DNA of 64,000 nucleotides from Oceanospirillaceae bacterium (GTDB taxonomy: Bacteria > Pseudomonadota > Gammaproteobacteria > Pseudomonadales > Litoribrevibacteraceae): positions 1 to 64,000 of the forward strand of contig JADFAD010000003.1 of the NCBI GenBank assembly GCA_015665455.1. The letters run 5' to 3'. Shown in pieces: positions 10,925-25,489 of the stretch. The position numbers and the translations under genes were made by a program. Each line of letters begins with the position of its first letter. The stretch's first letter is position 1. The notes under the pieces were generated by a model. That model was given only the letters and a program-made list of their open reading frames with translations. It was not told where the DNA came from and ran no database searches.

Positions 10925-12565
10925 ATGACCATAATGCAAATCGTTTATTGGCTTATAGCCAGTCTTGGTAATCTTTGTGCTTTCTACTTATTCAGTCAAA
11001 CAGACAGTGTATTCAGCATTGTTTTTTTGGTGTTCACCTTGGTTTATACGGCCGTAGGCTTTTATGACCTAAAATTCAGTACTCATAATTTGAATCGACT
11101 CTATCCGGTCGTTGCTTACATCCGATACTTTCTTGAGTCATATCGTGTCGAAATTCAGCAGTACTTCATCGCGAACGATACAGAAGAGCGGCCTTTTAAC
11201 CGCGAGCAACGTTCTTTGGTGTATCAACGAGCTAAGAACGTCAGAGATACCATTGCATTTGGTACTCAGCGAAATTTGATGGAAGAAAACTATTTAAGTC
11301 TTTGGCATTCTTTAAGCCCGAAGGAAGTATTTGAAGAGGCGAAACTGATTCGCTTTGGCGGGCCCGATTGTAAACAACCTTATGATGCATCGTATTTAAA
11401 TATATCCGCGATGAGCTTTGGATCATTGAGTGCTAATGCCATAGAAGCCATGAACTTGGGGGCAAAGAAAGCCGGTTGCTATCACAATACCGGTGAGGGC
11501 TCTGTGAGCCCTTACCATCTAAAACACGGTGGCGACATTGTTTGGCAAATTGGCTCCGGGTTATTTGGGTGTCGGAATGACGAAGGCCGTTTTAATCCAA
11601 AGTCATTTGAAGCGATGGCGACTCAGCCTCAAATTAAGATGATTGAAATAAAACTGAGTCAAGGCGCAAAACCGGGGCATGGGGGTGTATTGCCTAAGGC
11701 GAAGATCACCGAAGAAATTTCAAGAATACGTCATATCCCAATGGATAAAGACTGTATTTCGCCTGCCGTTAATCCCGAATGCACGACGCCGATTGATCTG
11801 CTGAATTTTGTACAAACCTTGAGGACGTTAAGCGGTGGAAAGCCGGTAGGCTTCAAATTGTGTATTGGTAATCCAGCGGAGTTCCTAAGCATCTGTAAAG
11901 CCATGCTTGAAACGGGGATAACGCCCGATTTTATTACCGTAGACGGTGCCGAAGGCGGCACAGGGGCTGCGCCAGTTGAGTTCAGTAATCGGCTTGGTAT
12001 GGTGTGTTTAGAAGGTGTCTACTTTGTTCATAATGCGCTGATAGGCGTAGGCCTTAGGGATAAAATTCGTATTATTGCTTCAGGTAAAACGGCTTCAAGT
12101 TTCGATTTACTGTCTAAGATTGCAGTAGGTGCTGATACGGTTAATGCGGCCCGTACCATGATGTTAGCGCTTGGCTGTATTCAATCCAGACACTGCAACA
12201 CCAACAATTGCCCAACCGGCATTGCAACTCAAGATCCTGCTCGTTCAAAAGGTATCAACGTTGAAGATAAGGGCGAACGTGTTTTTAATTTCCATAAGAA
12301 CACACTAAAAAGCTTTTATGAGTTAGTGGGAAGTATGGGCTTAGATGACCCCGCGAAACTGATGCCTCAAATGATCAAACGTAGGACGCCATACGGGATG
12401 TTGATGCCAATTGGCAGTCTTGTTGAGCCTCTACAAACCAAGGCACTTATTGATGGTGAGGTCAGTGACCAATGGCAACAATGGTGGGAAGACAGTCGAG
12501 CGGATCAATTCTATGTGGATGATCTTTATATCATTCGGCCTGCTGAAATAAAGCACTCTGCATAA
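10925..12565 (+). CDS. Membrane-anchored FMN-binding glutamate synthase-like protein (GltB central domain family)
   Basis: Protein of 546 residues with one or two N-terminal transmembrane helices (about residues 5-45), then the FMN-binding TIM barrel of glutamate synthase large subunit. Seen are SAMSFGSLSANAIEAMNLGA, HNTGEGSVSPYHLKHGGDI, GAKPGHGGVLP and the glycine-rich GAEGGTGAAP. Three cysteines with Cx5Cx4C spacing (C418, C424, C429 in CIQSRHCNTNNC) match the 3Fe-4S ligands of glutamate synthase. The glutaminase domain and the C-terminal beta-helix are absent. It is therefore the archaeal-type short form rather than true GltB, and its physiological reaction is uncertain. It is preceded and followed by unrelated single genes. 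Confidence 0.85.
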   Translation: MTIMQIVYWLIASLGNLCAFYLFSQTDSVFSIVFLVFTLVYTAVGFYDLKFSTHNLNRLYPVVAYIRYFLESYRVEIQQYFIANDTEERPFNREQRSLVYQRAKNVRDTIAFGTQRNLMEENYLSLWHSLSPKEVFEEAKLIRFGGPDCKQPYDASYLNISAMSFGSLSANAIEAMNLGAKKAGCYHNTGEGSVSPYHLKHGGDIVWQIGSGLFGCRNDEGRFNPKSFEAMATQPQIKMIEIKLSQGAKPGHGGVLPKAKITEEISRIRHIPMDKDCISPAVNPECTTPIDLLNFVQTLRTLSGGKPVGFKLCIGNPAEFLSICKAMLETGITPDFITVDGAEGGTGAAPVEFSNRLGMVCLEGVYFVHNALIGVGLRDKIRIIASGKTASSFDLLSKIAVGADTVNAARTMMLALGCIQSRHCNTNNCPTGIATQDPARSKGINVEDKGERVFNFHKNTLKSFYELVGSMGLDDPAKLMPQMIKRRTPYGMLMPIGSLVEPLQTKALIDGEVSDQWQQWWEDSRADQFYVDDLYIIRPAEIKHSA

Positions 12566-12652
12566 TAGCTAAGATGATTTGTTGTATTCACTGAGCAGGG
12601 GGCCTAGGATGTGCCGCACAGAAGGTGCCCGTCAGGATTGTTCGTTCATTGC

Positions 12653-12703
12653 ACCCATCATATGAACGAACCTATCATCTGAACGCACCTATCATCTGAA
12701 CGC
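12653..12703. repeat. Three tandem copies of a 17-bp repeat
   Basis: The unit ACCTATCATCTGAACGC occurs exactly at 12670-12686 and 12687-12703. A diverged copy with three or so changes lies at 12653-12669. The array is in the spacer before the DUF6172 gene. A regulatory role is possible but unsupported. Confidence 0.7.
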
Positions 12704-12763
12704 CATCTTCAGATCTAACACTTTTAACAGCTAGATCACCGACCACATTAAATAAGGTTAATT

Positions 12764-13066
12764 ATGAGAAAAACGTTTGCTTTAACGCACCCTAAACTGA
12801 ATCTGGCTCGTTTGGTTGAATCCATTAAATACGATGTGAAAAAGTACATTAAAAGAGAACGAAATAAATCGCTGCCTGAGGGCGTGGATTACTGGTATTT
12901 CGATTGTAAATTTGGTCACACTGAAGAAGAGGCAAAAAGAATCCGACAGTCTGACATTAACAAATGCATTGATGAAGCTGAGCAGCTAAAGCTGGCGTCT
13001 TTTTATTTGGAAATTTTGGTGCAAGAAGGACATAAATCTAAAAGCCAAGATGAAGATTTAAGTTGA
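12764..13066 (+). CDS. DUF6172 family protein
   Basis: Conserved small cytoplasmic protein of 100 residues, recognised from the family pattern: KTFALTHPKLNLARLVESIK, KKYIKRERNKSLPEGVDYW, FDCKFG, and EINKCIDEAE-like SDINKCIDEAE followed by SFYLEILVQEGHK. It is highly charged, with no signal peptide or membrane segment. No function is known. A plain ATG follows AATAAGGTTAATT, a moderate ribosome-binding site. It is about 50 bp upstream of the YnfA-family gene and may be co-transcribed with it. Confidence 0.75.
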   Translation: MRKTFALTHPKLNLARLVESIKYDVKKYIKRERNKSLPEGVDYWYFDCKFGHTEEEAKRIRQSDINKCIDEAEQLKLASFYLEILVQEGHKSKSQDEDLS

Positions 13067-13119
13067 TTCATACTGGCTAATTTAACAAGAGCTCTTTGTA
13101 TTATAAGTGTGAGTGCTTA

Positions 13120-13452
13120 ATGTTCGAATTGAAAACCTTTGCATTGTTTTTCATTACTGCTGTCGCGGAAATTATTGGTTGTTATCTCCCGTATTTGTGG
13201 CTTAAAGAAGATAAGAGTATTTGGTTGCTTGTACCAGCAGCGATAAGTTTGGCTATTTTTGCATGGCTTTTATCATTGCATCCTTCCGCTGCAGGTCGTG
13301 TTTATGCAGCGTATGGCGGTGTGTACATTTGCGTTGCGATTTTATGGCTGTGGCTAGTGGAGGGAATAACCCCAACCTCTTGGGACATTGTAGGGTCTTT
13401 GGTCGCTGTAACTGGTATGGCCATTATAATGTTTGCACCACGGGACGCTTAA
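13120..13452 (+). CDS. ynfA: YnfA-family (UPF0060) inner-membrane protein
   Basis: Four-helix membrane protein of 110 residues belonging to UPF0060, related to small multidrug resistance transporters. Diagnostic segments are [36 protein letters not shown] and [14 protein letters not shown], almost the E. coli YnfA sequence. The frame is open from a TTG at 13096, but homology and hydrophobic topology start at ATG 13120. The ribosome-binding site is weak (GTGAG). The family has been linked to drug efflux in some enterobacteria; transport by this protein is inferred. Confidence 0.9.
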
Positions 13453-13525
13453 CCACAACCTTGAGCGCGTTTTTGTCTTGATGAAGGCACCTTGTTATGG
13501 CAGTAGCGTGTTTTGAGGTGGTCGG

Positions 13526-14722
13526 TCATTTTCCTTGCCGTTGTGCGTAGAACATACAGAGCAACGACGTTCCGCCACACACAAGAAATCCAAATACCAA
13601 TGGAAGAACGGTTCCATCATAGTACTGGCCAATAATACCTCCTATCACGACTGAAATTAGGGTTTGTACGGAGCTTATGACAGAGGTTGCAATACCCGCG
13701 ATATGACCCAAAGGTTGGATTGCCAGAGTATTGAAATTGCCAAACAGGATGCCAAAGCAGAAGAAAGTAACCCCGATGTAGCTTAGTAAGGCGGCCAAAG
13801 ATGGGTGACCTGAATGGCTTTGAGCGTATAAAAAGAACAAGGCTGAACTCACCGTAATGGCCATCAATGCGACCAAGCAAAGCGCTTCCATTTGAAACTT
13901 CATCACCAGTCTAGAGTTCACGAAGGACGAGAAACCAATGGCAAGTGCCAGACATCCAAAGTAGATGGAAAATGTATTGCCCAGTTCGTATTGGATTTGA
14001 AGCATCTGTTGAGCCGTACTCAGGTATCCAATGAAAGAACCGAACATAATACCTGCTGTAAGAATGTATATGCGTGTTAGGGAGTTACTCAGTGTTTCCT
14101 TGATGCCTGACAAAATTACACTGAAGGAGAAAGGCAACCTGTTCTCGATGGCCAATGTTTCGGGTTGCCGAAAATGAAGCCATAGAACACTGGATACCCC
14201 GACAAATAAGATAAACAGAAAAATGGCATGCCAGTTGGCTACCAGCAATATGGCTTGTCCCACGGAAGGCGCGAGTGCCGGGACCATGATAAAGAACACC
14301 ATAATGAGTGACATGACCTTAGCCATTTTAGGGCCTTCAAACTTGTCTCTTATCATGGCGAGCGTAACAACTCGGCATGAAGCGGCGCCGAATCCTTGAA
14401 GCAATCGTCCAGCGAGCATCTCGTTTAAGCTGTTAGAGAAAAGCGAAATTAAATCGCCTATTACAAAAATGCCCACACCTATGTAGATGGCTTTCTTGCG
14501 ACCGTAGGAATCAGAGATTGGGCCGTAGAGCATGAGTCCTAAGGCCATGCCAAAGAAAATAGTCGAAATTATCAGCTGGGCGTCGTTGGGATTCTCAACC
14601 TGAAGGCTGGTTCCTATGTGACTCAGTGCCGGAAGCATTGCATCAATAGTTAGCGCCACCAATGACATTAATATTGCCATGATGCTGATGAACTCGTTTG
14701 TGCCTATTTTTGTTTTATTCAT
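13526..14722 (-). CDS. Bcr/CflA-family MFS drug efflux transporter
   Basis: Major facilitator of 398 residues with about 12 predicted helices, expected to export small drugs with proton antiport across the inner membrane. The N-terminal helix carries the Bcr/CflA signature TIDAMLPALSHIG. The loop 2-3 motif appears as YGPISDSYGRKKAIYIG, and GRLLQGFGAASCRV matches the helix 4 motif of the DHA1 group. It converges with the YnfA-family gene and its start faces the small frameshifted frame at 14853. No regulator lies beside it. The substrate is unknown. Confidence 0.87.
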   Translation of the reverse strand: MNKTKIGTNEFISIMAILMSLVALTIDAMLPALSHIGTSLQVENPNDAQLIISTIFFGMALGLMLYGPISDSYGRKKAIYIGVGIFVIGDLISLFSNSLNEMLAGRLLQGFGAASCRVVTLAMIRDKFEGPKMAKVMSLIMVFFIMVPALAPSVGQAILLVANWHAIFLFILFVGVSSVLWLHFRQPETLAIENRLPFSFSVILSGIKETLSNSLTRIYILTAGIMFGSFIGYLSTAQQMLQIQYELGNTFSIYFGCLALAIGFSSFVNSRLVMKFQMEALCLVALMAITVSSALFFLYAQSHSGHPSLAALLSYIGVTFFCFGILFGNFNTLAIQPLGHIAGIATSVISSVQTLISVVIGGIIGQYYDGTVLPLVFGFLVCGGTSLLCMFYAQRQGK

Positions 14723-14852: not shown

Positions 14853-15069
14853 ATGATAAGAACACGGAAACCCTCCATTAAAGAAGGGGCACTCGAAAAG
14901 GAGGCGCTAGATAAGGTTCTTATAACGGTTGGTCCATCCAACTTAGCGTCAAAAAAAGATCATTGAAAAGCTGGGGGTGCATTTTATTAATGAAATAAAA
15001 GTGCCTTTTGATGATCCTGCTTATTTGAATGGCGCTCGCATCAAAAGGCGTTATGAATGGTGCCTTTAA
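14853..15069 (+). pseudogene. Frameshifted small gene, disrupted at a run of seven A
   Basis: ATG 14853 opens a frame of 37 codons that stops at 14966. Just before the stop is a run of seven A (14951-14957). Removing one A joins it to a second open stretch reading on through KIIEKLGVHFINEIKVPFDD to a TAA at 15067-15069. The fused product would be about 71 residues with normal-looking composition. GGGAAGTG precedes the ATG. This looks like a small gene broken by one inserted A, a sequencing error in the homopolymer, or a slippery-site frameshift. I do not recognise the family. Its end overlaps the stop of the convergent sigma-54 activator gene by 4 bp. Confidence 0.4.
15003..15049. repeat. Inverted repeat with 11-bp perfect arms
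   Basis: GCCTTTTGATG at 15003-15013 and CATCAAAAGGC at 15039-15049 are exact reverse complements separated by 25 bp. They lie just past the 3' end of the leftward sigma-54 activator gene. There is no T-run, so a Rho-independent terminator is not clear; it may be an mRNA-stabilising structure. Confidence 0.6.
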
Positions 15070-16502
15070 TGCCAGTGTTTTTTCTTTCTGTGGATGGTTG
15101 ATGGTGCAACTTTCAAGAGTGCCGCAGCTTTCGCTATATTTCCTTCACAGTAATCAATGGCTTGTTCAATCGCCTCTCTTTCAACCACATCAAGGGGTCT
15201 GATGACTATTTCACTAGGCAGAACCTCTGTTGGTGACATAGGTTGTGTTATTTGTCTGGTTGCTGACAGTGATGTAAACGATGTTTGATGTACGTTTTCT
15301 ATTGGTACCGTCACGTTGTTCGGTTGCGCGTTTTTAAAGTCTTGTGCAGTGACGTCTAAAGGTGTGGGAAGCATGCTTAACGTTACTTCAGTGCCATCAT
15401 TTAATACCACAATATTTTGTATGACGTTCTGAAGTTGTCGGGCATTCCCGGGCCAAGAGTAACGTTGTAACCTGAACTTGGCGTCTTTGCTGAACGCTTT
15501 GAAGTTCTTTTGCTCGATTTCTGTGTAGTGCTTCAAGAAAAAATCTGCGATTGCAAGAACATCAGAGCCTCGTTGTCTAAGCGGAGGGAGGTGGATAGGC
15601 ACCACTTGCAATCGATAATAGAGATCTTCTCGGAACGTTCCCTGATTGATCATTTCAATAGGGTTGCGGTTTGTGGCGCAAATGAAGCGGACGTCTACTT
15701 TCTCAAGCACGTCACTTCCGACTTTATGGAACTCACCCGTCTGAATAAAACGTAGAAACTTACTTTGAAGCTCTAAATCCATTTCACCGAGTTCGTCTAA
15801 AAACAAAGTCCCATTATCCGCTGTTTTAGCGGCACCTTCTCGATCCGTGTTAGCGCCTGTAAATGCGCCTTTTACGTGCCCGAAAATTTCACTTTCCATC
15901 AAGCTTTTAGAGATCGCAGCGCAGTTAATGGTGACCAATTCGTTTTCGCTTCTTTTACTGCTTTTATGGATGGCTTGGGCACACAGTTCTTTACCGGTGC
16001 CGCTTTCGCCAGTGATGAAAATAGACGCATCACTTTGTTCACAGCTGCGAATAATTTCATACACTTTGTTCATTGATTCGCTGGCACCAATGAACCCATA
16101 AAAGGACTCTTTAAGCTTTAATTTGGGATAAAGAAGCTCGTGTTTCTCAATGGCATTTCTAACCGTTAGGCATAATCTATCGCGGTTAAAAGGCTTTTCA
16201 ATGTAGTCTGTTACGCCCATTTTGATGATGTTTCTGGCTTGATCTACTTCACCGTGGTTGGTCATGACAATCAGTAAAATAGGAAGATGGTTTGAGCGTA
16301 TATGGCCTATTATTTTTATGCTTTCACTGTCGGTGAAATTCACACCTAAAATCACCAGAGAAGGGGTTTCTTTGCTAATTATATCCAGAGCATTGCTCGT
16401 GTCGGCTCTGATTACGTCGATACGCTCTTCCATTAGAAAAGCAGTGTAGAGTCTTGCGTTTGAATCCCTGCTCTCGATAAGGACCGCTTTGTGGTTACTC
16501 AT
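15066..16502 (-). CDS. LuxO-like sigma-54-dependent activator with a phosphorylation-dead receiver
   Basis: Enhancer-binding protein of 478 residues: receiver-like domain (about 1-120), AAA+ sigma-54 activation domain (about 136-370) and Fis-type HTH (about 438-478). The AAA+ part resembles Vibrio LuxO, with FIGASESMNKVYEIIRS, Walker A GESGTGK (165-171), the sigma-54 contact loop GAFTGA (212-217) and Walker B LFLDE. The HTH ends in GNIAKAAALLKVAPSTIHRK. The receiver keeps the conserved Thr (MTN) and Lys (EKPF), but the phospho-acceptor Asp is Gly53 (SLVILGVNF where LuxO has DLILLDLRL). The output module looks functional, the phosphorylation switch does not. It starts 3 bp after the kinase-like gene, so both form an operon. 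Sigma-54 promoters of the pilin genes are its likely targets (inference). Confidence 0.9.
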   Translation of the reverse strand: MSNHKAVLIESRDSNARLYTAFLMEERIDVIRADTSNALDIISKETPSLVILGVNFTDSESIKIIGHIRSNHLPILLIVMTNHGEVDQARNIIKMGVTDYIEKPFNRDRLCLTVRNAIEKHELLYPKLKLKESFYGFIGASESMNKVYEIIRSCEQSDASIFITGESGTGKELCAQAIHKSSKRSENELVTINCAAISKSLMESEIFGHVKGAFTGANTDREGAAKTADNGTLFLDELGEMDLELQSKFLRFIQTGEFHKVGSDVLEKVDVRFICATNRNPIEMINQGTFREDLYYRLQVVPIHLPPLRQRGSDVLAIADFFLKHYTEIEQKNFKAFSKDAKFRLQRYSWPGNARQLQNVIQNIVVLNDGTEVTLSMLPTPLDVTAQDFKNAQPNNVTVPIENVHQTSFTSLSATRQITQPMSPTEVLPSEIVIRPLDVVEREAIEQAIDYCEGNIAKAAALLKVAPSTIHRKKKHWH

Positions 16503-16505
16503 GTG

Positions 16506-18851
16506 TTAGTTCAAGCCTATGTTCTTTTTTATATCTATTAATTTACGTTCAGTATCATCAATCACTATTTTAATTGTTGCTAATGGGACATTAAAAAATT
16601 TGTGTTGGTCAAAATTATTAATGTCGGAAATGAATTCATTTAACAGAACTTTAAGTTTGAGAAGCTCTTCGTAGAGCTTTTGGCTGCCAAAGTTCAAGGC
16701 TGCACTGGTTGCAGCAGACACAACTTTCTTACACACATCGAATTCACCCTGAGAGATTAAAAGGCTCAGATCATGATGTGTTTCTTTCATTTCCCTTGTG
16801 TACATGTTGATCAGTTCTCGGAAAACGTCTTCGCCGGTGTCTTCAAATAAGCTCTCTAAGGTATTTAAGTTAATGCAATCGTTTGCCTTAAGGTCGGGCT
16901 CTTTCACTTCCGATATGATGTGTTGAGCATCTGACGTTGAATAGTCCTTAGTAATTGCTTTGGGATGGGCTATCGGTGAATAGAGTGATTGATCGATGAG
17001 CCTTGCAAACTGCTCTTGATTGATGGGCTGCGTAATATGGTGCTCTATTCCTGCTTGCTGCATTGATATGGCAAGCCCGCCCGATTGGTTCTTTAGGATT
17101 GCGATTACTTGAACGGACGCGTTAAATTCGCAACTCTTTTTAATGTGGGCAACGGTCTCTGCTCCATCCATTCGCTCCATTTCCATTTCGATCACGATCA
17201 AATCGTATTTCTGCTTGGCGCAGGCGATAACGGAGTCGATCCCGTTACAAGCAAAATCTATCTGACAGTCCCTTTTCGAAAGCGTTTCAAGGATAGGTTG
17301 AATGTTCCTAATGCCATTACCAACGGTTAGCACGTTAAACGTACTCGGTGTGTTAACTATTTTCCGCTGTTCGTGACTGAGTACATAGGGATAAGGGATC
17401 GCTTCATCAATCATTGTTGCTATGAGGTTACCTAAGTTACCTACGTTGTAGATCTCTGGGAAGAGTTGAGAGGCTGTATCATAGCTTCGAGTATCAGATT
17501 CAGACTTAATGGCAATCGAATGCTTTAACGCCAGTTCAGCAAGAATTAAATTATAAAGCTCTGTTGAGTACATTTCGTTAGCGAGAACGATGACTAAATC
17601 ACTGGCTTTATTCTCTTTGATTTCTTCAATGGTCCATATTTCTTCAACCGACGCTCCCCAGGATATTAATTGACGTCTGATTGCACTGTTACGGGAAGGG
17701 TCTGAAATGAGCGTAATGGACTTTCCCTTAAGAAAGTAGCGGTTGTGGGTTAAATGTAAGTCATGAACTTCCGGTAATTCCATGGAGAGTTCAAAGAAAG
17801 CCCGTCCATTATCGAGTACTTTAAAGAAGCCTGATACATCAAGGAGCTGTGACAGTATTTTTACATTGGACGAATGAACACAGAAATCAGCATTGCCTGC
17901 ATTTCGAGTCATTGCTGTTATAAGTTCTTTGGTTGCCATTAACGTATCTTTGGGCGCAATGTAATCGAGACTGATGGTGAGCTTTTTATCGTTCTCATTT
18001 GATGACCCTTCAACTGAATCACTGGGTGATACGGATAAGTTAACTTCGCCCACTGGCTGTGAGCCGCTAACAAAAGACAGTAAGCTGATGAGCAGTTGCT
18101 CTAACCTTTTTGAATCGCCAAATAGCAGTTCAGGAGTAAGAGGGTTTACATAGAAATTAAGCGATGCGCCTAATTGTTGTAAATCTCTGTGATTATTTAT
18201 TGATACCTGCTCAATTAAATCAAAGATATTAAAAGGGCTCGGGTTTATCTTAATGCTGTTTGTGCTCAGTTTGAAGGTATCAACAATCTCATTCGAGGTG
18301 TTGTCTATATCTTCTAGACGATCACTCATTTCAAGAAGCAGCGACTTTTGGTTTTCAGTAGTACCGCTCTCAAAAAGTTGGCTGATAAGGTCTGAAATAC
18401 CATCGATGGGTTTTTTTATTTCATTGGATAGTAGGCCAAGGTGCTTTTCGAGTTCTTCATTATTAACTTTTTGAACGGGCCGGTCGTACGTTCGTAAGTC
18501 TGAGAAGATGGAAAGCTCAAGTCTAGATAAGTTAGTTAACTCTCCATCTATAAGAACTTGCACGACACTTGTTTCAACGAAAGCAGGGAAGCGTTGGCCG
18601 TTACGCCTTTCGAAGATGACTGGCGCATCATCTTCTTTTTTTGTTCGGCATACATCAGAAATTCGTAAAGACTTAGGCTTTATATTGGCTAAATATATTT
18701 GTTGAAGCTCTTCATGCTCATAACCAAGTTCTTGAGTCATTTTATGACTGCCACCAACAATCTCGCCATTAAACTTATGAAATAAGATCAGTTGATCCAG
18801 CACTTCATTGTCTAAAAGTAAGTTTTCTAGCGTGAGAATTGACTTGTCCAA
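16506..18851 (-). CDS. Hybrid-kinase-like protein (PAS, HisKA, receivers, Hpt) lacking all phospho-acceptor residues
   Basis: Predicted cytoplasmic protein of 781 residues. Order: PAS-like domain (about 15-115), dimerisation helices resembling HisKA (about 130-200), degenerate ATPase region (about 205-360), receiver-like region (about 375-480), second receiver (about 505-622) and Hpt-like domain (about 665-745). The HisKA motif reads LSNEIKKP, so the His is Asn143. N and G boxes of the ATPase are not recognisable. The receiver reads YDLIVIEMEMERMDG, with Glu555 for Asp, Gly-Asn for the acidic pair and Gln608 for the Lys. In Hpt, VVSAATSAALNFG replaces the usual AHTLKGSAANLG, giving Ser712 for His. 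The start is TTG at 18851, with AGGA about 8 nt upstream; the next Met is residue 38, inside PAS. Probably a signalling scaffold rather than an enzyme (inference). Confidence 0.82.
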   Translation of the reverse strand: MDKSILTLENLLLDNEVLDQLILFHKFNGEIVGGSHKMTQELGYEHEELQQIYLANIKPKSLRISDVCRTKKEDDAPVIFERRNGQRFPAFVETSVVQVLIDGELTNLSRLELSIFSDLRTYDRPVQKVNNEELEKHLGLLSNEIKKPIDGISDLISQLFESGTTENQKSLLLEMSDRLEDIDNTSNEIVDTFKLSTNSIKINPSPFNIFDLIEQVSINNHRDLQQLGASLNFYVNPLTPELLFGDSKRLEQLLISLLSFVSGSQPVGEVNLSVSPSDSVEGSSNENDKKLTISLDYIAPKDTLMATKELITAMTRNAGNADFCVHSSNVKILSQLLDVSGFFKVLDNGRAFFELSMELPEVHDLHLTHNRYFLKGKSITLISDPSRNSAIRRQLISWGASVEEIWTIEEIKENKASDLVIVLANEMYSTELYNLILAELALKHSIAIKSESDTRSYDTASQLFPEIYNVGNLGNLIATMIDEAIPYPYVLSHEQRKIVNTPSTFNVLTVGNGIRNIQPILETLSKRDCQIDFACNGIDSVIACAKQKYDLIVIEMEMERMDGAETVAHIKKSCEFNASVQVIAILKNQSGGLAISMQQAGIEHHITQPINQEQFARLIDQSLYSPIAHPKAITKDYSTSDAQHIISEVKEPDLKANDCINLNTLESLFEDTGEDVFRELINMYTREMKETHHDLSLLISQGEFDVCKKVVSAATSAALNFGSQKLYEELLKLKVLLNEFISDINNFDQHKFFNVPLATIKIVIDDTERKLIDIKKNIGLN

Positions 18852-18911
18852 AAGAATTCCTAATAAAAATCTGGTGTTAAGCGCTAAATCTTGAAAGGAG
18901 GTTTAGCTGTG

Positions 18912-18969
18912 GTTGCAATATGCAACTTTTGAGTTGCGAGTTGCCATTGTTGTGGTTGCATTATGCAAT
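18912..18969. promoter_or_regulatory. Paired palindromic activator sites, copy 1
   Basis: GTTGCA-ATA-TGCAAC at 18912-18926 is a perfect dyad. TTGCA-TTA-TGCAA within 18955-18969 is a second copy. Centres are 43 bp apart, about four helical turns. The pair lies about 185 bp upstream of the sigma-54 promoter of pilin gene 1 and 60-120 bp upstream of the divergent kinase-like gene. It has the position and form of an enhancer for a sigma-54 activator, and the adjacent LuxO-like protein is the obvious candidate binder. The 18852-19210 spacer has no convincing gene. Confidence 0.75.
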
Positions 18970-19142
18970 TGCTGGTTTGTAACTATTGTAGTCCTTTGTA
19001 AATAGTTTGTAACACTGACATAAATACGAAAATAATATCACCTTTATTTCCTTATTTTTAGCTTGCAATAACAGAAAAATAGAGGCCTGTATGAAGATTG
19101 TCGCGTTTTTACATGTTGTTACGCCCAGTAACTTCGATAAGT

Positions 19143-19158
19143 TGGCACATGAGCTGCA
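19143..19158 (+). promoter_or_regulatory. Sigma-54 (-24/-12) promoter of pilin gene 1
   Basis: TTGGCACATGAGCTGCA has GG at 19144-19145 and GC at 19156-19157, exactly the 12-bp register required for RpoN. It matches the TTGGCAC-N5-TTGCA consensus at all but one core position. The predicted start of transcription is near 19169, giving a leader of about 42 nt before ATG 19211. Confidence 0.82.
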
Positions 19159-19210
19159 TTACCATTGGCAAGAAGGAAACAAAAACAACTAATTTTTTAA
19201 AGGTAATTCT

Positions 19211-19660
19211 ATGAGACTTTCTACACGCATCGCTTCTACACTTGCTTTGACTGCTGTTGCTTCATCTGCTGTTGTTGCAGACACTTTTCAGGCTGCAGTG
19301 ACGGTATTAGACACGCTAGCAATTGCAGAAAATACGGCCGTTGATTTCGGTACAGTTACGAGCACTGATGGCACTTGTATCATGGCTACGGGTGGTGCTT
19401 TATCAGGGACTAATGGTTGTACAGGAACAGCAACACCGGGTGCGTTCACAATTACTGGTTCAGATGTGACGGTTGATTTAACGGTTACCGCTGGTGCTGC
19501 GGTTGATGGTGTAACGTTTGCGCCTGCGATTGATGGCAGTGCTTCACCTACGTTATCTGGTGGTACAACCTCGGTTGCTGTCATTGGCCAGCTAACGCTA
19601 GCTTCTGCAACGGCAGGTGCTAAATCAATCGATTTTGATTTGACTGCGAACTATCAATAA
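19211..19660 (+). CDS. DUF4402 pilin-like major subunit 1
   Basis: Exported subunit of 149 residues. Residues 1-23 form a Sec signal peptide cleaved before DTFQAAV. The mature domain shows the DUF4402 pattern: an opening beta strand, then VDFGTVTSTDGTC, two cysteines (in GTCIMATGG and NGCTG) that could form a disulfide, a Gly/Thr/Ser-rich core, VAVIGQLTLASATAG, and the terminal DFDLTANYQ. Such domains occur as subunits of alternative chaperone-usher fibres. The gene has its own sigma-54 promoter and terminator, consistent with strong single-gene expression. AAAGGT precedes the ATG. The mature protein differs from subunit 2 by one residue, although many codons differ. Confidence 0.85.
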   Translation: MRLSTRIASTLALTAVASSAVVADTFQAAVTVLDTLAIAENTAVDFGTVTSTDGTCIMATGGALSGTNGCTGTATPGAFTITGSDVTVDLTVTAGAAVDGVTFAPAIDGSASPTLSGGTTSVAVIGQLTLASATAGAKSIDFDLTANYQ

Positions 19661-19792
19661 AACTGCAGTCGATTTGAACCTATTCGTAATGCCTGCAGTC
19701 ATGAAGCGCTTTTATTTAGCGGATGTCTCATAAGGTAGGGTGCGATAAAAAATAAACAATCCTGGTTTTTACTGGGTGTATGAATACTATTT

Positions 19793-19827
19793 AAACCAGC
19801 GGGGCAAAATGCCTTGCTGGTTTTTTT
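19793..19827 (+). terminator. Intrinsic terminator after pilin gene 1
   Basis: AAACCAGC (19793-19800) pairs with GCTGGTTT (19816-19823), and an inner GGCA-AAA-TGCC extends the hairpin. A run of seven T follows. It isolates pilin gene 1 from the downstream cluster. Confidence 0.88.
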
Positions 19828-19870
19828 GTTTTAGGGGGATGAGTCTTTCTAACGGACTTTATTATAAGCC

Positions 19871-19942
19871 CTGTCTGTTCTGTCTGTTCTGTCTGTTCTG
19901 TCTGTTCTGTCTGTTCTGTCTGTTCTGTCTGTTCTGTCTGTT
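19871..19942. repeat. Eight perfect tandem copies of a 9-bp unit
   Basis: CTGTCTGTT is repeated exactly eight times (72 bp) in the spacer between the two pilin genes, after the terminator. Perfect identity suggests recent slippage and copy-number variation between strains. The long spacer 19661-20417 otherwise holds the terminator, the second palindrome pair and the second sigma-54 promoter. Confidence 0.95.
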
Positions 19943-20105
19943 CTGCTTTATCTATGCTTAATTGTCCTCAGGCGCATCAGTGGTTTCTTCCTGATTTAAA
20001 TATGATCTTTGTCTTATTCTTTGCCCTGCCTAAATCAATTTTAGTGATCTTGGTGTTGGCTTCTTAAAAGTCAGGCATTTGTGGTTCTAGTTATTTGTAT
20101 TTCGA

Positions 20106-20164
20106 GTTGCATTATGCAACTGAAACAGGCGCATATTGCTTTTGTGTTAGTTGCATAATGCAAT
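20106..20164. promoter_or_regulatory. Paired palindromic activator sites, copy 2
   Basis: GTTGCA-TTA-TGCAAC at 20106-20120 is a perfect dyad, and GTTGCA-TAA-TGCAAT at 20150-20164 a second copy. Centres are 44 bp apart, nearly the spacing of the pair before pilin gene 1. The pair is about 195 bp upstream of the second sigma-54 promoter. The same half-site, same 3-bp spacer and same pairing before both pilin genes support a shared activator. Confidence 0.78.
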
Positions 20165-20348
20165 TTTAGTTTTGTTTCTAAGGTTAATTATTGTAATTCA
20201 ATGTAGTTATTTGATTTATTTCCTTTTTATTTCAATTTTTGGAAATATTTCATATTCCATGAACACCCCATAAATTGGGTTGTTTAGGTAGATAAAGTTA
20301 AAATATTAAGGTTTTTACAATATGTTACATTGGTTTGTTAATCAAAGT

Positions 20349-20364
20349 TGGCATGCAGACTGCA
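20349..20364 (+). promoter_or_regulatory. Sigma-54 (-24/-12) promoter of pilin gene 2 and the assembly operon
   Basis: TTGGCATGCAGACTGCA has GG at 20350-20351 and GC at 20362-20363, the correct 12-bp register. The predicted transcription start is near 20375, leaving about 43 nt before ATG 20418. Leader length and promoter layout copy those of pilin gene 1. Confidence 0.82.
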
Positions 20365-20417: not shown

Positions 20418-20867
20418 ATGAAACTTTCTACTCGCATTGCTTCTACTCTAGCTCTAACTGCTGTTGCTTCTTCTGCTGCTGTTGCGGATACATTTCAGGC
20501 GGCTGTAACGGTATTAGATACATTAGCTATTGCAGAAAATACGGCGGTTGATTTTGGTACGGTAACGAGTACTGATGGTACGTGTATTATGGCTACAGGC
20601 GGCGCTTTATCGGGCACTAACGGTTGTACAGGAACGGCGACACCAGGTGCTTTCACTATCACTGGTTCTGATGTAACTGTGGATTTAACGGTAACGGCTG
20701 GGGCTGCTGTAGACGGTGTGACGTTTGCGCCTGCAATTGATGGCAGTTCTTCACCTACGTTATCTGGTGGTACAACTTCCGTTGCTGTTATTGGTCAATT
20801 AACTCTGGCTTCAGCAACGGCTGGTGCTAAATCAATCGATTTTGACTTAACGGCGAACTACCAGTAA
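20418..20867 (+). CDS. DUF4402 pilin-like major subunit 2
   Basis: Exported subunit of 149 residues with the same signal peptide, cysteine pair and C-terminal DFDLTANYQ as subunit 1. Only three residues differ: Lys2 for Arg, Ala21 for Val (both in the signal peptide) and Ser for Ala near residue 111. In contrast, roughly 60 codons carry synonymous changes. An upstream in-frame ATG exists at 20397, but ATG 20418 is preceded by AAAGGTGA and matches the start of subunit 1. A strong hairpin after the stop would make this the most abundant product of a longer transcript running into the minor subunits, chaperone and usher. Confidence 0.86.
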   Translation: MKLSTRIASTLALTAVASSAAVADTFQAAVTVLDTLAIAENTAVDFGTVTSTDGTCIMATGGALSGTNGCTGTATPGAFTITGSDVTVDLTVTAGAAVDGVTFAPAIDGSSSPTLSGGTTSVAVIGQLTLASATAGAKSIDFDLTANYQ

Positions 20868-20892: not shown

Positions 20893-20918
20893 AAAGCCAC
20901 TCATGTGAGTGGCTTTTT
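20893..20918 (+). terminator. Hairpin terminator/attenuator after pilin gene 2
   Basis: AAAGCCACTCA (20893-20903) and TGAGTGGCTTT (20906-20916) form a perfect 11-bp inverted repeat with T residues after. No promoter is obvious between it and the next gene 60 bp on. Partial read-through could set the ratio of major subunit to minor subunits and assembly proteins. Confidence 0.8.
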
Positions 20919-20979: not shown

Positions 20980-21411
20980 ATGAAACGTTCTCAGCTATTA
21001 ATAAAAGCACTTTTTACCTTTTTGGTTGCAGTGCCGTTGCCATCCGTAGCTGAGTTAAGATTGGATGTCATTGATAGCATGGATTTTGGCACGTTATCCA
21101 TCGAGAATGGTACGTGTACATTAAAGAACAATGGTTCATTGGTCGCTACTAACGGGCAAACTTGCCTTGGCTCAGGATCAATAGCAAAGTTTACGGCAGT
21201 AGGAGAACCTAATTCAGGGATAGTAATCTCCGCATTTCAAAGTGCAGAAAGCCATGGGATTACATTGGTTCCAGAGTTGATTACGTCGAGTTCAAAGACA
21301 TTAAACGGTAAAGGAATAGCAACAATCAAAGTTGCGGGCTCATTAGTTTTTAATCAAGCCAGTTCAGGATCATTACTTCTGAACTACACTTTGAGTATTA
21401 ATTATGAATAG
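20980..21411 (+). CDS. DUF4402-like minor pilin subunit A
   Basis: Exported protein of 143 residues with a signal peptide (about 1-24, ending PSVA-E). The DUF4402 pattern is recognisable but diverged: IDSMDFGTLSIENGTC, a second Cys in GQTCLGSG, then TIKVAGSLVFNQASSGSLLLNYTLSINYE. The family's closing N-Y-acidic/Gln strand is conserved. The subunit lacks the initial TFQAAVTV strand of the major pilins, so its donor strand or position in the fibre may differ. It could be a tip, base or terminator subunit (inference). It lies 11 bp upstream of minor subunit B, so both share a transcript. Confidence 0.75.
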   Translation: MKRSQLLIKALFTFLVAVPLPSVAELRLDVIDSMDFGTLSIENGTCTLKNNGSLVATNGQTCLGSGSIAKFTAVGEPNSGIVISAFQSAESHGITLVPELITSSSKTLNGKGIATIKVAGSLVFNQASSGSLLLNYTLSINYE

Positions 21412-21422
21412 AGTCTTAAAGT

Positions 21423-21908
21423 ATGGTCGGAAGTTCCGTTCCTCAATACTGGAATGCAGCGGCTGGTGCATCGTTGTTTTCACTTATTATTTATTCCTCT
21501 TTTTCGTTTGCAGCCTCACTGACCTCTTTTGCACAGGTTCAAGTAGTTGACGAATTATCGATGGAGGAATCGGTGTCTATTGATTTTGGTGTTTTGGAAA
21601 ATAAAGATGGCACATGTTCAATGGACTCGAGTGGAAATTTAGCCGGAGTTGGCGGACAGACTTGCTCAGGTATAAGTACGCCGGGTGAGTTTAAGATATC
21701 CGGTACGGAAGATCAGACCATTCAGGTTGCTGTAACCTCTGGTACCGCTGTGGATGGCGTTAATTTTGTCCCTGCGATATCAGGTGGGGATATTTATAGT
21801 TTAACCTCGGGCGAAACTACTATTAAAGTCATTGGTGAGCTAGTATTAGATTCGGCTACTTTGGGCCATAAATCAATTACTTATACATTAACTGCAAATT
21901 ATCAATAA
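21423..21908 (+). CDS. DUF4402 minor pilin subunit B
   Basis: Exported protein of 161 residues with a longer signal region (about 1-30, ending SFSFA-A). The mature domain follows the DUF4402 plan closely: FAQVQVVDELSMEE, SIDFGVLENKDGTC, a second Cys in GGQTCSGIS, TPGEFKISG, AVDGVNFVPAISGG, TIKVIGELVLDSATLGHKS and YTLTANYQ. It is clearly homologous to the major pilins throughout, at moderate identity. The chaperone gene starts 13 bp after its stop codon, so it belongs to the assembly operon. Its role in the fibre is not evident from sequence. Confidence 0.8.
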   Translation: MVGSSVPQYWNAAAGASLFSLIIYSSFSFAASLTSFAQVQVVDELSMEESVSIDFGVLENKDGTCSMDSSGNLAGVGGQTCSGISTPGEFKISGTEDQTIQVAVTSGTAVDGVNFVPAISGGDIYSLTSGETTIKVIGELVLDSATLGHKSITYTLTANYQ

Positions 21909-21921
21909 TTAAGGTTTTTAA

Positions 21922-22764
21922 ATGCGTCCCCGTTTCTTGATAGATAAGAATAATAACTTTGTTAGGTCTGCGTTTTGTTCTCTGATGTTTCTTTCATTAA
22001 ATGACTCTGTTAATGCAGCCCAAATGTTGCAGATTCTTCCGCCTAGGATAGTGATAGAGGAAGGGCGTAGTGCTTCTCTCACCTTGGTAAATAGAAATAA
22101 CGAAAGTGGTGAGTATCGATTATCAACACGTAACATTCGCACGGGTGAAGATGGTCGTTTTGAAATCATTACTGAAGCCAATGAAGACGAATTGTTTGCT
22201 GATAAAATGCTTCGATATTCACCGCGCAGAGTGACTGTTGATGGCCAAAGTAAACAAGATGTGCGCGTGGTCGTTAGAAAACCTAAGGATCTTAAAGAGG
22301 GTGAATATCGAAGTCATTTAGTTTTTCGAAGTATACCTAAGCCTCTGGATCAAACGTCTGAAGGTGCTAATTCCATTTCGATGCAGTTCAATCCAACGTT
22401 AGAAATTACGATCCCTGTTATTGTTAGACATGGTGACTTAACTGCTGAAATCAATTTAACAGATCAGAAGTTAACGGTTGATGAAGAAGGGCAACAGCAT
22501 CTAGAGTTCACAATCAATCGAGAGGGAACCCGTTCTATTTACGGTGAGATATCGGCTTGGTGGACGCCTATCGAAGGGCAAAAAGAAGTTCGAATCGGTA
22601 TGGCGAAAGGCATCTCTGTTTATTACCCTAATTCATTACGGTATTTTTCATTACCTGTTTCAGCTGATCAACCCATTTCGAAGGGCCGCATTCGGGTGGA
22701 GTACAAAGAAGACCCTACCTATGGTGGTGATAAAACAACGGAAACTACGTTTTTGTTACCATAA
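21922..22764 (+). CDS. PapD-like periplasmic pilus chaperone (alternative chaperone-usher type)
   Basis: Exported two-domain immunoglobulin-fold chaperone of 280 residues. A signal region covers about residues 1-33 (ending VNAA). The first domain has MLQILPPRIVIEEGRSASLTLVNRN, the usual opening edge strand, and later MLRYSPRRVTVDGQSKQDVRV, which corresponds to the P-R motif of pilus chaperones. FNPTLEITIPVIVRHG marks the domain junction. It should cap DUF4402 subunits in the periplasm and deliver them to the usher. It is longer than FimC-type chaperones. It sits between subunit B (13 bp) and the usher (58 bp). Confidence 0.82.
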   Translation: MRPRFLIDKNNNFVRSAFCSLMFLSLNDSVNAAQMLQILPPRIVIEEGRSASLTLVNRNNESGEYRLSTRNIRTGEDGRFEIITEANEDELFADKMLRYSPRRVTVDGQSKQDVRVVVRKPKDLKEGEYRSHLVFRSIPKPLDQTSEGANSISMQFNPTLEITIPVIVRHGDLTAEINLTDQKLTVDEEGQQHLEFTINREGTRSIYGEISAWWTPIEGQKEVRIGMAKGISVYYPNSLRYFSLPVSADQPISKGRIRVEYKEDPTYGGDKTTETTFLLP

Positions 22765-22822: not shown

Positions 22823-25489
22823 ATGCTGTTGTTTCTTGCTTTTCGCCGTTTGGCACTTGTCTGTTTGTTCTTATTTTCATTGTTTGCAAGTGCCAATGAA
22901 AGAATCAACTTGAGCAACGAACTGTATATTGATGACTATGAGTTAATTGTAGATTTTCATTATAAAAAGTATGTCATCAGTCGTGATGTGTTTATTTACT
23001 CTTTACCAGAAACAACTTTGCTGCCCATTCAATACCTTGTTGATGGTGTAGAGTTTCCTATTATTGTTAATCCTCTGAGTATGACAGCCTCAGGCTGGTA
23101 CATTGACCCTGCGAATACATTTGAAATCGATTTTAAAAATAAGACGTTGTTTGTTAAAGGGGTAGAAGAGCCGTTCCCTGACAACGCGATTGTCTATTCT
23201 GATGGTATCGATCTCTATGTTGAGTCGAAACTCATCGAACAATTAACACCGTTAACTTTAACTCTGAATACAAGCCGGTTGAGATTAGAAATTTCTTCTA
23301 AAACGAAGTTGGCATTTGAAACTAAATTAGAGCGAGAAAGCGTACGGTCTGTTTCTTTTGCTAGGAAATCTAAGAGTTATGCTTCCATTGATGATCATTA
23401 TGCTTTGGCTGGCCCGCCCGTTATTGATCTCACATTAGGCTCTCATTTTATTGAGGACGATTCTCCTTTTTATACGCTACAAACATCGTTTGATTTACTT
23501 TGGTTTGAGACCTATTTTTCTAGCACGATGGCGGCGACGAACAGCTCTTCAAAAGAGCGGTTGACGTTTAGAAAGCGGCCTAACAATCCAAATTCACCCA
23601 TGCTAGGTGGGATCTCATTCATTGAATTTGGAGATTCTTTTGCAAAATCCAATCAATTAATTTTTCAAGGCGGTGAAGGGCAAGGATTCAATGTGGATTT
23701 CGGTGCTGTATCTGATCAAGACTCGTTTGGTAAGACAAACATTGAAGGTGATGGTACTCCTGGTTGGGAAGTAGAGCTTTATAGAAACGGGGTTTTGATT
23801 GATTTTGTACAAATTGATGCCAGTGCTAGATATCAATTTACAGACGTTGAGTTGGACTATGGAGATAATGTGTTTGATGTCCGCTTGTACGGCCCTTTAG
23901 GACAAACAGACCATAAAAGAGAACAAATTAATATTGATAATAAGATGCTATCCGAAGGCACTGGCGGGATCTCTCTCAGCTATATTGACGTTGGAGACCC
24001 ATTTATTGAACCGGGTTTTGATGATGCGCTTGATGAAAAGAAAATTGATATTTCAGGGCAGCGTGGTATTTCAAAAAATTTATCGATCAGTGGCGGGTTT
24101 TCTCGTCACGAGTTTGAACAAGACATTGGCGATGAAATTCAAACCATAACCGATGATTACCTTAATATTGGTCTTTCATCCGCTCTTGATTCAATAAATT
24201 TAGGGGTTGATTACTCAAATCAAATGGATAAAGGCTGGGCTGGAAGTGTCAATGGCCAGACTCGTTTATTTGATGTCAGTACGACTCTATCGCATTCTCA
24301 CTACAGTGACTTTGAAAGTGACCGAAACTCGGAAGGTCGTCTCATTCGAGATACTGAGCTACGGCTTAACAGTGCATTTCAGCCTTTTGGTTCCAGACCG
24401 TTACAGGTCAACATGAAAGTGATTAGAGAAACATTTCAGAACATAGGCTCGACATTGGAGCTTGATACCCAGCTTGGATTTCAGCTTTTCTCTGGCGCGT
24501 TTTCTGTATCGAATGTAATTCGGAATTCTGACATTACGAACCAAATAATAGACGGCAGAATCAGTTACTCACAAACGATTACGCGTTCTAGCCAGCTTCG
24601 CTCGTCACTTAACTATTCTGCAAAGCCATCTGTTGCGGTCAATGACAGCGACGTAAACATAACATGGCATCCAACATCTAACATCCGTACCAATGTTGGG
24701 TTTATTGTGAATTTTAATTCAGGGCATACGAACTCAGTAAGCTATTCAATTTCAAAACTGTATGACGCTTTCTCACTTTCTTTGAGCGGTGAAAGTAAGG
24801 AAGATGGCTACAATCAGGTTACTTTGTCGTTGGAGACATCGTTGTCTCCTGTGGATTCTAAGGGACTGAATCTTTCTGGTAAGTCACGTGTTAATAATGG
24901 TCGGCTGCAAGTCCGATCGTTTCTTGATACAGATCATTCAAACGATTGGAGTGAAGGAGATACCCCTATTGCAGGCGTTGGGCTTTATGGACGATCAGAT
25001 TGGAATACCATTAAAACGAACGACGAAGGGATTGCTTATTACCCTGGCTTGAGTGGTGATGTGGCCAGTAAGATCGTAATTGATGAGCGCTCGATTGAGG
25101 ACCCATTTTGGAAAGTATCCTTTCCAGATTCAAAGATTTATTCTCATGCGGGTGGTTTAAAGCGCATTGATATACCCGTGCACATAACAGTAGAGATTGA
25201 AGGGACCATAACAGCTTTAATAGATGGAAAAGAAAAGCCCTTGCCTAATATACCTGTCACGGCTTATCAAGATGGTAAACCTATTGCGACGATCAAATCT
25301 GAGTTCGACGGTTATTATGTTTTTACTGGGTTAATACCCGGTCAATATGATTTACTTTTGGATCAAGCGTATTTAAAGCGATTTAATTTAAATAAAGTCA
25401 TTGAAGCTATGACCATCGATGTGACAGCCGAGGACGGTGTTTTTTATGTTGATCCTTTCATAGTTGAGTTCCCTAAGAAAACTCATTAG
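22823..25489 (+). CDS. Outer-membrane usher-like protein with C-terminal Ig/CNA-B-like domains
   Basis: Outer-membrane protein of 888 residues with a signal peptide (about 1-24). An N-terminal periplasmic region is followed by a long beta-barrel rich in alternating strands (about 180-690). Inside it lies a plug-like segment, GWEVELYRNGVLIDFVQID (about residue 313), typical of FimD/PapC ushers. The C terminus has two carboxypeptidase-regulatory or CNA-B-like beta domains: LDTDHSNDWSEGDTPIAGVG (about 700) and PNIPVTAYQDGKPIATIKSE (about 800). The last reads GYYVFTGLIPGQYDLLLD. Overall similarity to classical ushers is low, so it belongs to an alternative group. It should translocate the DUF4402 subunits. 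The start is ATG 22823 with a poor ribosome-binding site. Confidence 0.8.
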   Translation: MLLFLAFRRLALVCLFLFSLFASANERINLSNELYIDDYELIVDFHYKKYVISRDVFIYSLPETTLLPIQYLVDGVEFPIIVNPLSMTASGWYIDPANTFEIDFKNKTLFVKGVEEPFPDNAIVYSDGIDLYVESKLIEQLTPLTLTLNTSRLRLEISSKTKLAFETKLERESVRSVSFARKSKSYASIDDHYALAGPPVIDLTLGSHFIEDDSPFYTLQTSFDLLWFETYFSSTMAATNSSSKERLTFRKRPNNPNSPMLGGISFIEFGDSFAKSNQLIFQGGEGQGFNVDFGAVSDQDSFGKTNIEGDGTPGWEVELYRNGVLIDFVQIDASARYQFTDVELDYGDNVFDVRLYGPLGQTDHKREQINIDNKMLSEGTGGISLSYIDVGDPFIEPGFDDALDEKKIDISGQRGISKNLSISGGFSRHEFEQDIGDEIQTITDDYLNIGLSSALDSINLGVDYSNQMDKGWAGSVNGQTRLFDVSTTLSHSHYSDFESDRNSEGRLIRDTELRLNSAFQPFGSRPLQVNMKVIRETFQNIGSTLELDTQLGFQLFSGAFSVSNVIRNSDITNQIIDGRISYSQTITRSSQLRSSLNYSAKPSVAVNDSDVNITWHPTSNIRTNVGFIVNFNSGHTNSVSYSISKLYDAFSLSLSGESKEDGYNQVTLSLETSLSPVDSKGLNLSGKSRVNNGRLQVRSFLDTDHSNDWSEGDTPIAGVGLYGRSDWNTIKTNDEGIAYYPGLSGDVASKIVIDERSIEDPFWKVSFPDSKIYSHAGGLKRIDIPVHITVEIEGTITALIDGKEKPLPNIPVTAYQDGKPIATIKSEFDGYYVFTGLIPGQYDLLLDQAYLKRFNLNKVIEAMTIDVTAEDGVFYVDPFIVEFPKKTH

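Follow-up and report, generated by a model that had tools for sequence, protein, structure and literature searches.

LuxO-type paired sites upstream of putative sigma-54 promoters of duplicated pilin-like genes, and a neighbouring activator with a degenerate receiver, in an Oceanospirillaceae bacterium

The window analysed here is a stretch of 64,000 nucleotides from an Oceanospirillaceae bacterium of the Litoribrevibacteraceae (assembly GCA_015665455.1, contig JADFAD010000003.1, positions 1 to 64,000 of the forward strand). It contains a presumed fimbrial operon in which both major pilin-like genes are preceded by a sigma-54-type promoter and, farther upstream, by a pair of palindromes; on the opposite strand lie the genes of a LuxO-like activator and of a hybrid-kinase-like protein (Table 1).

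Table 1. Genes and sequence elements of the fimbrial locus, with positions in the window
Feature	Position	Strand	Remarks
LuxO-like sigma-54 enhancer-binding protein	15066..16502	-	degenerate receiver, position 53 Gly; AAA+ core and Fis-type HTH intact
PAS and hybrid-kinase-like protein, TTG start	16506..18851	-	3 bp upstream of activator gene
Enhancer site 1A, GTTGCAATATGCAAC	18912-18926	none	exact TTGCAW3TGCAA
Weak middle site, TTGCGAGTTGCCA	18934..18946	none	21/22 bp from 1A/1B, 2 mismatches
Enhancer site 1B, GTTGCATTATGCAAT	18955-18969	none	exact TTGCAW3TGCAA
Third element, TTTTTACA-N3-TGTTAC, copy 1	19106..19122	none	kept in both promoters
Putative sigma-54 promoter P1, TTGGCACATGAGCTGCA	19142..19158	+	TTGGCAC-ATGAG-CTGCA, GG 19144, GC 19156
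Major pilin-like gene 1	19211..19660	+	ORF, cysteines conserved with homologues
Predicted intrinsic terminator after pilin 1	19793..19823	+	z -5.1
Enhancer site 2A, GTTGCATTATGCAAC	20106-20120	none	exact TTGCAW3TGCAA
Enhancer site 2B, GTTGCATAATGCAAT	20150-20164	none	exact TTGCAW3TGCAA
Third element, copy 2	20312..20328	none	kept in both promoters
Putative sigma-54 promoter P2, TTGGCATGCAGACTGCA	20348..20364	+	TTGGCAT-GCAGA-CTGCA, GG 20350, GC 20362
Major pilin-like gene 2	20418..20867	+	ORF, three residues differ from pilin 1
Predicted terminator or attenuator after pilin 2	20893..20916	+	z -4.3
Minor pilin-like gene	20980..21411	+	homology to pilins 1 and 4 and relatives
Pilin-like gene, weak DUF4402	21423..21908	+	E 0.0039, below cut-off
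Periplasmic fimbrial chaperone	21922..22764	+	weak PapD_N; predicted fold
Presumed outer-membrane usher with SdrD_B-like C-terminal domain	22823..25489	+	beside chaperone, conserved with chaperone

The predicted fold of the chaperone matches CfaA, CsuC and CupB2 (E about 1e-9 to 1e-8), and WxL-interacting proteins as well; by this fold match, the operon would encode the PapD-like chaperone of chaperone-usher fimbriae. For the 22823..25489 product, neither Pfam (usher family PF00577) nor the PDB gave a sequence match to an usher, and the usher is assigned by position. The pilin model is all-beta (pLDDT 75), and fimbrial proteins are among its weak structural matches; since none of these matches is significant, the label "pilin" is based on the surrounding operon and on the fold of the chaperone. 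The locus resembles the Csu and CFA/I chaperone-usher classes in the fold of its chaperone, which matches CsuC and CfaA, and in the order pilins, chaperone, presumed usher, but differs from them in that none of its pilins reaches the cut-off of a Pfam family. Neither RpoN nor LuxO is named in a review of fimbrial regulation from 2022 (PMC9820224).

Promoters P1 and P2 match the sigma-54 consensus TGGCAC-N5-TTGCA with its fixed GG/GC spacing, and a gene for RpoN is present in the genome. The positions of the two -24/-12 elements given in the initial annotation were reproduced, and so were the similar leaders of 42-43 nt: transcription would start at about 19169 and 20375, which gives predicted leaders of 42 nt to the ATG at 19211 (pilin 1) and of 43 nt to the ATG at 20418 (pilin 2). 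The same annotation had spoken of twin promoters. The two are duplicates, and hence count as a single origin kept twice instead of two independent ones; they remain informative because their flanks have diverged. Outside the elements, ungapped identity upstream of the two genes is 34% over 130 bp, as compared with 21-34% at other offsets. Kept amid this near-random sequence are the palindromes and the distance between them, both promoters and, immediately ahead of each promoter, GTTTTTACA-N3-TGTTAC; decayed flanks around kept elements point to one origin of P1 and P2 and to retention of the elements by selection. The distance from the third element to the -24 GG is about 22 bp, and the genome contains no exact copies of this element other than the two listed in Table 1. 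The second enhancer lies 11-12 bp farther out than the first, that is, by one helical turn, so that the helix face is kept.

To judge by the decay of the DNA upstream of them, the pilin genes are an old duplication. They share 85% identity at the DNA level and differ by 63 synonymous codon changes and three replacements. In comparison with the other linked loci described below, duplication of the major pilin gene together with its promoter was seen in the window only. The strong predicted terminator behind each major pilin gene fits an extra output of the main subunit. The region between the pilin genes, upstream of the second enhancer, also contains a perfect 9-bp tandem repeat, CTGTCTGTT, with 8.3 copies at 19871-19945.

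Two copies of GTTGCA-N3-TGCAAC, about 185-195 bp upstream and with centres 43-44 bp apart, had been attributed to each promoter, and all four palindromes were recovered at the places given. The first palindrome of each pair is a perfect copy, but the second ends in TGCAAT and thus has one mismatch. Centre spacings of 43 bp (pilin 1) and 44 bp (pilin 2) agree with the earlier figures, and the proposed distance fits the nearer site of each pair, with 182 and 193 bp between centre and GG, but not the farther sites, at 225 and 237 bp. Relative to the predicted transcription starts, the pairs are positioned at about -250/-207 (pilin 1) and -262/-218 (pilin 2). This arrangement of sites and promoters supports the proposed geometry of a sigma-54 enhancer. 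The middle site TTGCGAGTTGCCA between 1A and 1B was matched in quality in 0.4% of interior shuffles and forms a tandem repeat of period 21; a regular three-site array was rejected, a good middle site being present only at pilin 1 and at one of the related loci (L149, see below).

When each pilin promoter region was subjected to dinucleotide shuffling, an equal pair arose in none of 1000 shuffles in either case. The genome scan which had been proposed as a check found the palindromes to be rare elsewhere: GTTGCAN3TGCAAY occurs at five places in the 4.85-Mb genome, four of them at the pilin promoters. The shorter TTGCAN3TGCAA is found at 11 places, versus seven for the reversed control. Five of the 11, namely the four pilin sites and one site at a polysaccharide locus, are located upstream of a sigma-54 promoter, all of them near a LuxO-like activator gene; the other six are within genes or have no sigma-54 promoter.

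Among 391 genomes of the order, paired TTGCAN3TGCAA motifs 18-46 bp apart are present in six (control, 0). The pairs of the other five genomes (L123-L127), mostly CTTGCA-N3-TGCAAG and 31-43 bp apart, are located at the start of HxlR-type genes; they are probably autoregulatory HxlR operators, and were rejected as further members of the group. Together with the five HxlR proteins encoded in this genome, they bring up the idea that some unrelated repressor, such as an HxlR-family protein, uses the palindromes of the window as operators, and that the sigma-54 promoters are there by coincidence. However, HxlR genes occur at none of the 11 TTGCAN3TGCAA sites of this genome and none is near the pilins, and a position some 200 bp ahead of a sigma-54 promoter and next to the gene of a LuxO-like activator suits an enhancer and not a promoter-overlapping operator, which makes the operator explanation extremely improbable in our view.

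All four palindromes contain the exact 13-mer TTGCAW3TGCAA, which the initial annotation had overlooked and which is the published enhancer site of Vibrio LuxO, a quorum-sensing activator (PMC10162802, PMC3352281, PMC11443567; sites from ChIP-seq, PMC10328515). As in the LuxO/qrr system, this 13-mer, often paired, is located upstream of sigma-54 promoters, and the NtrC-type activator has a related receiver, ATPase and HTH. In V. cholerae, the main LuxO targets in ChIP-seq are the four qrr loci (PMC10328515), whereas the apparent targets in the window are fimbrial structural genes and not small RNAs; moreover, the receiver Asp is lost in the window activator and the enhancers are farther upstream than those reported for qrr promoters. 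In Vibrio, LuxO is coupled to LuxU and controls the qrr small RNAs. Rfam gave no match in the window or in the locus of the paralogue discussed below; since Vibrio-family comparison loci were likewise unmatched, this search does not speak against qrr RNAs. SypG of V. fischeri is another LuxO-related activator that serves several sigma-54 promoters of a surface/biofilm locus (PMC10162802); it differs in having polysaccharide gene targets, a kinase-fed receiver, and a motif of its own, TTCTCAN3TGMDWN. At V. fischeri qrr1, the SypG site overlaps the LuxO site (PMC10162802). When half-sites in the regions upstream of sigma-54 sites at 80 LuxO-like loci were subjected to a permutation test, TTGCA came second among 60, surpassed by TGTCA, a result that lends support without being exclusive. 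The top half-site around the LuxO-like genes (loci L022-L101), in the form TGTCA-N3-TGACA, is perhaps the site of another subgroup.

The product of the activator gene matches Sigma54_activat (2.3e-67), Response_reg and HTH_8 in Pfam. Its best NCBIfam match is LuxO (NF041946, equivalog; 546 bits, below the curated cut-off of 800), and its best PDB match is LuxO as well (5ep0); with best family and structure matches to LuxO but a score under the cut-off, the protein is termed LuxO-like and not LuxO. The hallmarks of NtrC-type activators, i.e., an AAA+ domain with GAFTGA loop, Walker motifs and a Fis-type HTH, are all present. The phosphoacceptor Asp of the LuxO receiver is replaced in the alignment by the Gly of Table 1, while it is retained in the close LuxO-like homologues inspected. 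This D-to-G exchange confirms the pseudo-receiver; the loss is shared by three relatives, with other substitutions. FleQ, FlrA and VpsR-type proteins are sigma-54-family activators with atypical receivers which control surface structures, are not under ordinary phosphorylation, and sense c-di-GMP. The family closest to the window activator, in contrast, is LuxO and not FleQ. Loss of the Asp is compatible with another ligand or partner.

The kinase-like protein encoded next to the activator matches Response_reg and, weakly, PAS in Pfam, with no recognisable HATPase or Hpt match. Its catalytic residues are missing: the His of the H-box is replaced by Asn (SNEI, aligned with SHEI of RetS), the receiver Asp by Glu (aligned with the Asp of 6qrj), and the His of an HPt-like region, read by eye, by Ala. 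RetS, the best solved-structure match, shares a related dimerisation and ATPase-like region, but the similarity is weak (32 bits), and RetS retains the His, whereas the window protein has lost His, N-box and receiver Asp. RetS reportedly acts on GacS through direct contact. A search for orthologues of the kinase-like protein in 195 genomes of the order yielded weak matches of 23-24% at most and no close relative. Autoregulation of its gene through the first palindrome pair, as proposed earlier, is unsupported: the minus strand has no GG/GC-type sigma-54 site from 18841 to 19140. Sites 1A and 1B, 61-118 bp from the kinase start codon, could as well repress the kinase gene or do nothing there.

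With every catalytic residue of the kinase-like protein gone, receiver and kinase might merely be decaying, the fimbrial locus being silent or constitutive. We consider this very improbable in view of the long intact frames, the intact ATPase, the conserved enhancer elements, the excess of synonymous changes over replacements between the pilins, and the finding that several diverged relatives lack the Asp but have kept the rest. Decay is possible for the kinase, but is hard to square with enhancers that have been kept.

Searching the 391 genomes of the order with the presumed usher revealed four further loci (L146, L147, L148 and L149) in which a LuxO-like activator gene adjoins the same fimbrial operon; there was no match in the other genome of the same family, and an usher search in 369 genomes of the class brought up one more, distant locus, with no activator in the stretch covered. 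A sigma-54 promoter precedes the first pilin gene in L146, L147 and L149; in L148, the activator gene is beside the usher gene, and the pilin end is on another contig. Candidate pairs 42 bp (L146), 41 bp (L147) and 40 bp (L149) apart were found 168-250 bp from the promoter. Equally good pairs occurred in 47, 1 and 0 of 1000 shuffles, respectively; for L147, the pair scored first in this test adjoins the activator gene, and an equally good pair is located upstream of the pilin. Of the three loci with a promoter, one thus has a clear paired site, another a good one and the third a weak one, the L146 pair being degenerate and only marginally above chance.

All five fimbria-linked activators retain intact ATPase motifs and an intact HTH. 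The receiver Asp, in contrast to these, is lost in four of the five, with Gly in the window, Ser in L146 and L148, and Tyr in L147; L149 has Asp. In one tree the linked activators fall into two groups, and in a thinned tree they form one clade (86% SH-aLRT); because the activators of the window and L149 are long branches, a single origin is rated as possible. In L146 and L147, a protein with a weak receiver match takes the place of the kinase-like protein, and L147 also encodes an Hpt-HD protein whose Hpt motif still reads LHTIKG. The neighbours thus differ from that of the window, and the partner of the activator would therefore vary between genomes. The genes with the weak receiver match, located beside the activator gene (L146 4660-5475, L147 4821-5702), encode Glu or Asn where the Asp would apparently be, and an uncharacterised C-terminal region. 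The usher gene of L147 is in two frames (11153-13923), and may be a broken gene or reflect a sequencing error.

A second LuxO-like activator of this genome, encoded on contig 6 (164955-166379) beside the polysaccharide locus, has an intact receiver Asp and is 44% identical to the window activator; it may share the pilin sites. Were the pilin enhancers mainly used by this paralogue, the window protein would either compete with it or be a decaying copy, and pilin expression would follow a phosphorelay. The polysaccharide locus indeed has an exact TTGCAN3TGCAA site at 168798, about 2.3 kb from the activator, and a sigma-54 promoter, TGGCACATCCATTGCA, which starts 86 bp on, before a gene of that locus; in V. 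fischeri, a second activator, SypG, is documented to make overlapping use of LuxO sites (PMC10162802). However, the centre of the contig 6 site contains G/C (ACC), and there is one good copy only, whereas the window activator, with ATPase and HTH intact, is adjacent to the pilins, and its linkage to the fimbrial operon recurs in four other genomes; we regard main use by the paralogue as unlikely. With an activator whose Asp is intact, and with TTGCAACCTGCAA ahead of a consensus sigma-54 promoter, the contig 6 locus itself (L128; G000 contig 6, 158000-176000) resembles the SypG arrangement.

The initial annotation had linked the neighbouring activator to the pilin genes; this link is upheld on stronger grounds than were then available, namely a LuxO-family site, a LuxO-like activator, and recurrence elsewhere. 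We think it likely that a fimbria-dedicated LuxO-type enhancer-binding protein, probably independent of phosphate, activates both pilin promoters. The activator encoded at 15066-16502, or a close relative of the same DNA specificity, would bind the paired LuxO-type sites and oligomerise across sites four helical turns apart; with the DNA looped, its intact AAA+ ATPase would open the sigma-54 holoenzyme at P1 and P2, resulting in high expression of the major fibre subunit. Since the activator has no phosphoacceptor and the kinase-like protein no catalytic residues, control is probably exerted via protein contact, ligand binding or amount instead of phosphate. More tentatively, and with considerable doubt, one may envisage a fimbria-dedicated LuxO-type branch that has given up phosphorylation (in four of five members) but kept the LuxO enhancer code, and that is driven here by a catalysis-dead hybrid-kinase scaffold, the relay passing by contact straight to the twin pilin enhancers.

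Four points are new: the sites appear to be those of LuxO, the linkage recurs in other genomes, four of the five linked activators lack the receiver Asp, and both promoters carry a putative third element. The activation proposed would mean that the LuxO enhancer code reaches beyond quorum-sensing small RNAs to the direct control of a fimbrial operon, and, as far as sequences can tell, such a code can persist while the phosphate switch is lost. The locus would thus offer a clean test case for the control of sigma-54 activators without phosphorylation, as well as a concrete candidate regulator, together with its sites and promoters, for chaperone-usher fimbriae of a poorly characterised group.
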